Assembly: GCA_019636285.1 (NCBI GenBank)
Contig: JAHBXV010000014.1
Span: forward strand, 62,001 to 126,000
DNA length: 64,000 bases
Direction of reading: 5' to 3'
From: Planctomycetaceae bacterium
GTDB taxonomy: Bacteria; Planctomycetota; Planctomycetia; Planctomycetales; Planctomycetaceae
Position numbers and translations under genes: made by a program. Positions 5,478 to 61,720 of this stretch are shown here, in pieces. The notes beneath the pieces are model-generated. The model saw only the letters and a program-made list of their open reading frames with translations. It had not been told where the DNA came from and made no database searches. The first letter of the stretch is position 1, and each line of letters starts with the position of its first letter.

Positions 5478-5498
5478 ACTTCGCCGACTGGATGCAGG

Positions 5499-5584
5499 AC
5501 CGTCAAAACCTTCTAGACGTCCGAAATATCCCTGAATTTATAGAGGTTTCCGAGCCGCCATCCGGGTTTTGACGGAGGCTCATG
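5499..5584 (+). repeat. Dispersed 86-bp element, copy 1
   Basis: It aligns without gaps to 61536-61621, with 71 of 86 positions identical by my count. It begins with CCGTCAAAACC (5500-5510) and ends with the exact reverse complement GGTTTTGACGG (5565-5575), then GAGGCTCATG. An inner dyad GAGCC...GGCTC is kept in both copies. It lies immediately before the glycosyltransferase gene. Confidence 0.8.
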
Positions 5585-34511: not shown

Positions 34512-34569
34512 GCGAGTTGCCTTGTTTCCGAAGGTTTTGGCCCGCTTCGGGATCATGAAAGTGAGAATT

Positions 34570-34646
34570 CCGAACACAAGCAGTTGTGCCTGTCGGAAAC
34601 CTGCCGAGCACTTGGCAAACACTTCTCGGCACAGAGGTTGTGTGAG
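34570..34646 (+). repeat. Dispersed 72-77 bp element, copy B
   Basis: It aligns without gaps to 61628-61701 with 54 of 74 positions identical by my count, including an exact CACAGAGGTTGTGT end. It begins with ACACAAGC and ends with GGTTGTGT, an imperfect terminal inverted repeat. It lies just downstream of the flp terminator. Confidence 0.75.
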
Positions 34647-34665
34647 AATGCAAAAGACACAGCAG

Positions 34666-49118: not shown

Positions 49119-49190
49119 GGGAGCGATGTTCCTGGGAGTTTTTGACACGAACGCGGTTATCCTGCGTGGGCTGATGTCCCCCCAGTATCG

Positions 49191-49215
49191 CCCTCGCTGA
49201 CGCTTCGGGTTACAA
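49191..49215 (+). repeat. REP copy 1
   Basis: A 25-bp element, CCCTCGCTGACGCTTCGG followed by GTTACAA, 23 bases beyond the 3' end of the transposase gene. Read on the minus strand, the same sequence gives the peptide word NPKRQRG, which I recall as frequent in planctomycete spurious translations. Confidence 0.85.
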
Positions 49216-49237
49216 AAAACGTGCAAGACGCGTCGGC

Positions 49238-49732
49238 TTAATTGGTGGTCACACACGAGCGAGGGCCGGTTTTTCGATCTTGGGCCTGAGTCGTGTAGCG
49301 GATGCACGTTTCCAGCGTCGTCGCACTGTCGATGTGGCGAATGCTGCCCCGCTGGGCCCACCAGTTCTTCCGATTTGACTCAAGATCGTGGTTCAGGCAA
49401 CGCGTCGCCCAAGCCTTCAGGTCGCAGCGAAGCTTTCTTGGCGAAGTGTTCGGAGCTGAAACAACCACATGAACGTGGTTCGAGCGACAATTGACGGCAT
49501 GCAGATGCCACTGTCGATGCTGACAGGTTTCCGCGATCTGCCGCTCGACGGCAACTCGCTGTTCTGCGGTGAGGCGGCAGGCATCCTCGGTCATGCGTGC
49601 CACGTTTTCCCGTTCCAGAACTGGATCGGGGAGCTGCCAACCGCGCCGATACTCGACCCATCCCCGACTATCGCCCGGAAGCCACGTTCCGTAGGTGTTC
49701 CACGTCAGGAAGAACGCGATCGGCTCGGCCAT
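49238..49732 (-). CDS. REP-associated tyrosine transposase (RAYT, Y1/IS200-like)
   Basis: A 164-residue HUH endonuclease-type transposase. The opening FFLTWNTYGTWLPGDSRGWVE is typical of the planctomycete branch of the family. The HUH motif is H86-V-H88 in SNHVHVVVSAP. The probable catalytic tyrosine is Y146 in ETCIRYTTQAQD on the last helix. Such enzymes nick and join single-stranded DNA at REP hairpins and are thought to have spread REP elements. The gene appears intact, with an ATG at 49732. The presence of exact REP copies on both sides supports the assignment and suggests it is, or recently was, active. Confidence 0.88.
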   Translation of the reverse strand: MAEPIAFFLTWNTYGTWLPGDSRGWVEYRRGWQLPDPVLERENVARMTEDACRLTAEQRVAVERQIAETCQHRQWHLHAVNCRSNHVHVVVSAPNTSPRKLRCDLKAWATRCLNHDLESNRKNWWAQRGSIRHIDSATTLETCIRYTTQAQDRKTGPRSCVTTN

Positions 49733-49762: not shown

Positions 49763-49829
49763 TTGTAACCCGAAGCGTCAGCGAGGGCTGCTTAGGAAGA
49801 AAGCCCCTCGCTGACGCTTCGGGTTACAA
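49763..49829. repeat. Inverted pair of REP copies 2 and 3
   Basis: TTGTAACCCGAAGCG...GAGGG (49763-49787) is the exact reverse complement of CCCTCG...TTACAA (49805-49829). They are separated by 17 bases that themselves extend the dyad by GCT/AGC. The pair can fold into a stem of at least 25 bp, the REP doublet layout, between the transposase gene and the end of the kinase gene. Confidence 0.88.
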
Positions 49830-61434: not shown

Positions 61435-61512
61435 GTGTGCCACCGGCTATGCCAGTGGGCCCGTTTAGCTGATCGTTCCTAACAATAGGCACTGGCGGAG
61501 CCAGTGGCACAC
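61435..61512. repeat. Inverted pair of CACTGGC palindromic elements
   Basis: GTGTGCCACCGGC...GCCAGTG (61435-61458) is an inverted, slightly diverged copy of CACTGGCGGAGCCAGTG + GCACAC (61489-61512). Each copy is itself a palindrome, and the two can pair over about 23 bases. A further copy lies at 40984-41007. Confidence 0.75.
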
Positions 61513-61535
61513 GACCCATATCTCTATCGTGTAGT

Positions 61536-61621
61536 ACCGTCAATACCCTCTGGACGTCCGATATGTTCCTGAGCTTGCAGGGGTCTTCGAGCCGCCAACC
61601 GAGTTTTGACGGAGGCTCATG
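61536..61621 (+). repeat. Dispersed 86-bp element, copy 2
   Basis: The partner of 5499-5584. The last 19 bases, from TTTTGACGG to CTCATG, are identical in both. Terminal repeats CCGTCAATACC (61537-61547) and AGTTTTGACGG (61602-61612) are diverged (9 of 11 paired). A CCTG/CAGG inner stem is present at 61568-61581. Confidence 0.8.
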
Positions 61622-61627
61622 AGAAAC

Positions 61628-61701
61628 CCTGACACAACCGATTGCGCCGGTTAGCAACCTGCGGAAGACCAGGCAAACGCTTGATTGCACAGAGGTTGTG
61701 T
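61628..61701 (+). repeat. Dispersed 72-77 bp element, copy C
   Basis: It has perfect terminal repeats ACACAACC (61632-61639) and GGTTGTGT (61694-61701), plus an inner GGTT-AGC-AACC stem. It lies 6 bases after the 86-bp element and 19 bases from the stop of the fusion-protein gene. Confidence 0.78.
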
Positions 61702-61720
61702 TAAGACTTCTAACAGAATA

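Follow-up and report, generated by a model that had tools for sequence, protein, structure and literature searches.

Miniature mobile hairpins dispersed in the genomes of one planctomycete family

What kind of sequence is a gene-less stretch of fewer than one hundred bases that recurs in a planctomycete genome with inverted ends and conserved pairing? The question is raised by a 64,000-nucleotide window, the whole stretch of DNA analysed here and part of a 6.37-Mb, 113-contig planctomycete genome (G000), in which a sequence-only reading had matched two 86-bp sites (5499-5584 and 61536-61621) as copies of an undescribed dispersed element, interpreted as either a structured RNA or a non-autonomous mobile element. 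The two sites do align without gaps, with 15 mismatches over 86 positions and 19 identical bases at their right ends, and the arms of copy 1, CCGTCAAAACC and GGTTTTGACGG, are perfect, those of copy 2 carrying one A-to-T and one G-to-A change. The term undescribed is consistent with the absence of any account in the accessible literature, a body that left out most subscription papers, and with a covariance-model search in which no Rfam family matched the element.

A BLAST search of the whole genome with the 86-mer, as had been proposed, yielded further copies (40 scored places among 112 candidates, every E value being 5e-20 or better), and the similarity among repeats is not due to chance. Patterns describing the right and left ends matched 88 and 81 times, respectively, against about nine matches for a reversed control, and for the exact 14-mer KTCAAAACCCTCTG there were 78 occurrences and no match in the control. 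The genome therefore carries roughly 80 copies, on many contigs and in both orientations. They lie mostly outside predicted open reading frames in every orientation relative to genes and, within the resolution of crude gene calls, no consistent neighbouring gene or orientation was found among the copies in this genome. Copies seem to be clustered on some contigs (C50, C69 and C92).

The boundaries of the unit were set from 57-67 aligned copies with their flanks and from a 2-bp duplication. The repeat originally delimited is real, and its extent required correction from 86 to 88 bp, starting five bases further to the left, where flank alignment adds a GT[A/C]G tag plus one base, and ending three bases earlier, because the ATG common to both sites is target sequence and not element. 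Beyond these boundaries, flanks are otherwise unique among copies. Copy 1 occupies 5494-5581 on the forward strand between AT dinucleotides at 5492-5493 and 5582-5583, as established by flank comparison; it contains no gene and comprises the tag (here GCAG), an outer stem, an internal loop, an inner stem, a variable apex and the right end GGAGGCTC. Copy 2 occupies 61531-61618, also on the forward strand, and is flanked by GT and AT, without an intact duplication. The tag at the foot of the hairpin reads GTAG in 22 and GTCG in 16 of 56 copies in this genome, GTGG in some relatives and GTTC in all five scored copies of genome G094.

The fold is built from a 12-pair outer stem, a nearly invariant internal loop with TCTGN opposite CAACC, a 3-pair inner stem and the apex, in that order. 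In copy 1, the outer arms (5500-5511 pairing with 5564-5575, supported by covariance model alignment and paired substitutions) enclose the two sides of the loop at 5512-5516 (TCTAG here) and 5559-5563 (CATCC here), followed inwards by the inner stem, 5517-5519 with 5556-5558, which in this lineage opens with an A.C pair; all of these lie on the forward strand. This inner stem replaces a GAGCC/GGCTC dyad put forward earlier, which is incompatible with pairing of the outer arms and is not conserved in other genera. Between the arms, 128 of 145 copies have a core of 69 nt, whose middle is unrelated between genera, and in gap-free coordinates all pairs fall on one diagonal. Of the 56 copies retrieved by BLAST from this genome, 47 keep TCTG intact and 47 keep CAACC intact, although several searches used the loop and its invariance is partly ascertainment. 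The inner stem has few independent lineages behind it and fails in genome G110.

Flanking dinucleotides match in 36 of 57 copies in this genome, compared to 12.1 after shuffling, and in 34 of the 56 copies of a stricter set, and these matches are a 2-bp target duplication of varied sequence (AT, TT, CT, AA, GT, AC, TC). A duplication of 3 bp was rejected, since the third base is the element's own G on the left, whatever the target. Five of six scored copies in genus g60 (G094) also carry the 2-bp duplication (p 0.017), and in G018 and the genus comprising G023, G175 and G176 TA predominates on either side, as a TA target would give, a pattern beyond the reach of shuffling. Direct evidence of insertion comes from locus L019, where a copy is nested within another dispersed repeat: joined minus 2 bp, its flanks match uninterrupted copies of that repeat without gaps in BLAST, including 61622-61716 and 34569-34646 of the window. 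With some 80 copies, target duplications and an empty site, the interpretation as a non-autonomous mobile element is supported.

The BLAST search with the L019 flanks, and not the loop motif, also led to a second, related family sharing the TCTG/CAACC loop on a different outer stem (CACAACC/GGTTGTG). Two members lie on the reverse strand of the window, detected by both covariance model and BLAST: one at 61628-61705 (27.4 bits, E 1.2e-4) and a degraded one at 34570-34647 (22.3 bits, E 0.0024). The former and copy 2 stand in opposite orientations, 9 bp apart (61618-61628).

Loose searches, a pattern scan and the covariance model trace related elements to some ten genera within the family of this genome. 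Across 170 genomes of the family, the pattern scan found multiple copies in G000 (78), G175 (63), G023 (45), G176 (41) and G110 (33), and lower counts in G018 and G116 (9 each) and in G094 and G126 (7 each). G004 gave a weak signal (5), and of the remaining genomes most lacked matches altogether, with one or two in a few. Some of the related genomes are recorded publicly as Planctomycetales or Planctomycetaceae metagenome bins. When the covariance model was applied to 297 genomes of the class, matches were confined to this one family, adding genus g68 (G119) and single matches in G034, G029 and G123. An exact 24-mer had no match in named genomes. G175 and G176 have copies at the same sites (L289/L301, L290/L300 and L287/L302), and some insertions are therefore old. 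The outer stem differs among these genomes: this one has CCGTCAAAACC, G119 has GTTTCATAACC and G094 has GTCCGAAAACC, a tRNA array of G023 shows TTTCCAGACCC, and GTTTCAAAACC occurs elsewhere. Among the new outer stems found by the covariance model are CATAACC/GGTTATG in G119, GTCCGAAAACC/GGTTTTCGGAC in G094 and those of G029 and G123. The tRNA array (L190:3345-7432; G023 contig C39, about 117.8-121.9 kb) holds around 14 tRNA genes with at least five copies of the element between them, their stems diverged and mostly compensated, and it also gives sub-threshold Y-RNA-like matches (YrlA, 46.9 bits against a gathering score of 69).

Covariation was assessed on a 41-sequence alignment, in which 89.0% of cells pair, compared to 73.8% after shuffling, 12 of 16 pairs have changed on both sides, compared to 7.9, and the covariation score is 0.361, compared to 0.109. 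None of 500 shuffles matches any of these values, but related sequences are non-independent and the shuffle counts are hence not probabilities. In slid registers, pairing falls to 51% or less. The structural half of the structured-RNA proposal is thus supported across lineages. Its functional half, an RNA at work in each locus, is not supported: within this genome, stem pairs are broken in 44 cases and compensated in 3, and G.T mispairs (11) do not exceed A.C mispairs (16), in a count that excludes a larger anchored set, since the anchor introduces a bias in the left arm. Resident copies thus appear to be under no selection, and the source of the covariation must be the lineages that spread; because copies within the genome decay uncompensated, pairing appears to be important for spreading and not for each resident copy. 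Single copies fold no better than their shuffles (z of -1.4 and 0.0). A structured RNA retained for its function at each locus, as a regulatory element or small RNA, could account for the strong covariation between lineages and for copies near gene ends and among the tRNA genes of G023, yet it is highly improbable in the face of pairs breaking without G-U preference, no Rfam match, no consistent gene neighbour or orientation, and the mobility denoted by target duplication and nested insertion.

MITEs of bacteria, Correia/NEMIS, RUP and Nezha among them, are non-coding, have inverted ends and a short target duplication, and reach high copy numbers. In general terms the element is like them, and with terminal inverted repeats, a target-site duplication and no gene it falls within the general definition of a MITE; it departs from them in having arms that covary around a kept loop, a fixed length across genera and no parent insertion sequence in the searches made here. 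The element might be a classical MITE, a relic left by internal deletion of a DDE insertion sequence and moved via double-stranded terminal inverted repeats. Such a relic would explain the inverted ends, the high copy number and a 2-bp duplication, with a Tc1/IS630-like target in the genera where TA stands on both sides. We nevertheless consider it rather unlikely. The fixed difference between the arms, TCTGN versus GGTTG, is best kept while the arms themselves vary, the opposite of what terminal-repeat binding would entail; this pattern of a kept loop and free arms is the reverse of a MITE's. Target dinucleotides in this genome (AT, TT, CT, AA and others) are not the TA of IS630/Tc1-type elements, which appears only in some other genera. 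Nor do the ends match those of an autonomous insertion sequence in this genome or at the loci examined in G175. A longer, transposase-bearing element was rejected here, as scans with left- and right-end patterns resolve to the short unit, and likewise at the loci examined in G175, a complete genome in which the ends are paired about 71 bp apart and truncated solo ends are few. None of the IS630 (DDE_3) genes checked shares the ends of the element, and G094 has no such gene; an IS630 parent was rejected. A composite element made of neighbouring copies was rejected on the one pair examined (C40, L089), which has ordinary genes in between.

REP elements are hairpins with a GTAG or GTGG tetranucleotide at their foot, in which a bulge matters for recognition and cleavage takes place at a CT on one side of the hairpin, 5' or 3' (PMC8266576, PMC6006769). 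Planctomycetes are known to carry GTAG repeats, and around some Y1 genes long inverted repeats stand instead (PMC3733652). Like REP or GTAG-tagged repeats and the REPINs that go with RAYT (TnpA-REP), the element is a short, intergenic, imperfect hairpin present in many copies, with a conserved mismatch (the TCTGN/CAACC loop) between a basal and an upper stem, CT near both ends and, in many copies, a GT[A/C]G-like or GTGG tag at its foot, where the REP signature would be GT[AG]G lying 0-2 nt 5' of the foot. Unlike them, it spans 88 nt, beyond the 21-65 nt given for REP, and generates a 2-bp duplication where REP elements have none; its tag is not universal, being absent in G094 and variable elsewhere, and a single invariant internal loop is common to families with different stems. 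The imperfect subterminal hairpins of IS200/IS605 elements (PATE-like ends) are similar in their unpaired bases and guide-like tetranucleotide at the foot, and different in that the element has no transposase-bearing copy, duplicates its target and forms one hairpin across the whole unit.

All nine genomes searched encode Y1 proteins, with nine Y1 (IS200-like) matches in this genome, one of them in the window at 49238-49732. The loci scanned were those of all nine hits in this genome and of as many as 30 top hits in eight related genomes; none was flanked by the element, three have a copy within 1.5 kb, and several lie between pairs of hairpins of other sequence, some of 60-80 nt. Linkage to a RAYT was rejected, and where Y1 genes have clear flanking hairpins, these differ from the element. 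That the element is a long REP, mobilised by a RAYT or TIRYT (Y1 HUH) enzyme from whose gene it has become separated, agrees with the tag present in many copies, the CT near both ends and the stem-bulge-stem architecture (PMC8266576, PMC6006769) and with the occurrence of Y1 proteins in all nine genomes, but the absence of the element around the tnpA-REP (Y1) genes scanned, the inconstant tag, the length and the target duplication make it quite unlikely.

Three observations concern the Y1 genes themselves. The gene in the window (IS200-like, RAYT-type Y1_Tnp, reverse strand) has its own inverted repeats of the TTGTAACCCGAAGCGTCAGCGAGGGC type, at about 49190-49266 and 49763-49829, which bear no relation to the 88-bp element. 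In G116, one Y1 gene sits between stem-mismatch-stem hairpins of about 80 nt (AAAAGGGGACATTC..; L397:934-1013 and 1765-1843), the same size class as the element. Finally, a dispersed palindrome, GTGTGCCACTGGC..GCCAGTGGCACAC, occurs at 61440-61520 of the window, in the flanks of L023, L111 and L115, and near several copies and Y1 genes; it is probably a separate, RAYT-linked repeat.

The element is real, widespread and mobile, and it is likely to be a non-autonomous mobile hairpin moved in trans by an enzyme encoded elsewhere, best read as an intermediate between REP elements and MITEs. From the conservation pattern, the mobilising enzyme probably recognises the folded strand. Its contact with this single strand, more probably DNA than RNA, would be made at the internal loop; it would cut close to the GT[A/C]G tag and to the right end with its CT, and join the unit to a target that would be NT in this genome and TA in some relatives; new copies would then decay neutrally, and each genus would hold its own amplified subfamilies. 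Several points weigh against this explanation: a 2-bp target duplication is unexpected for known single-strand (Y1/HUH) transposition, ordinary terminal inverted repeats would also give paired change in the outer arms, single copies do not outfold their shuffles, and the enzyme was not found by linkage or end scans, which is the main gap in the account. The stronger proposition of a fold-defined mobile element, in which an enzyme class reads an invariant loop on free stems in the folded form of DNA or RNA and integrates the element with a 2-bp stagger, is tentative, and we hold it to be possible but doubtful.

These hairpins constitute a new, well-bounded family of miniature mobile elements in one planctomycete family, whose members a covariance model can find. 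The conserved loop and the 2-bp duplication place specific, testable demands on the mobilising enzyme and make the line between REP elements and MITEs less sharp. If true, recognition defined by the fold, coupled to a 2-bp staggered cut, would be a combination absent from both RAYT/REP and DDE/MITE systems.
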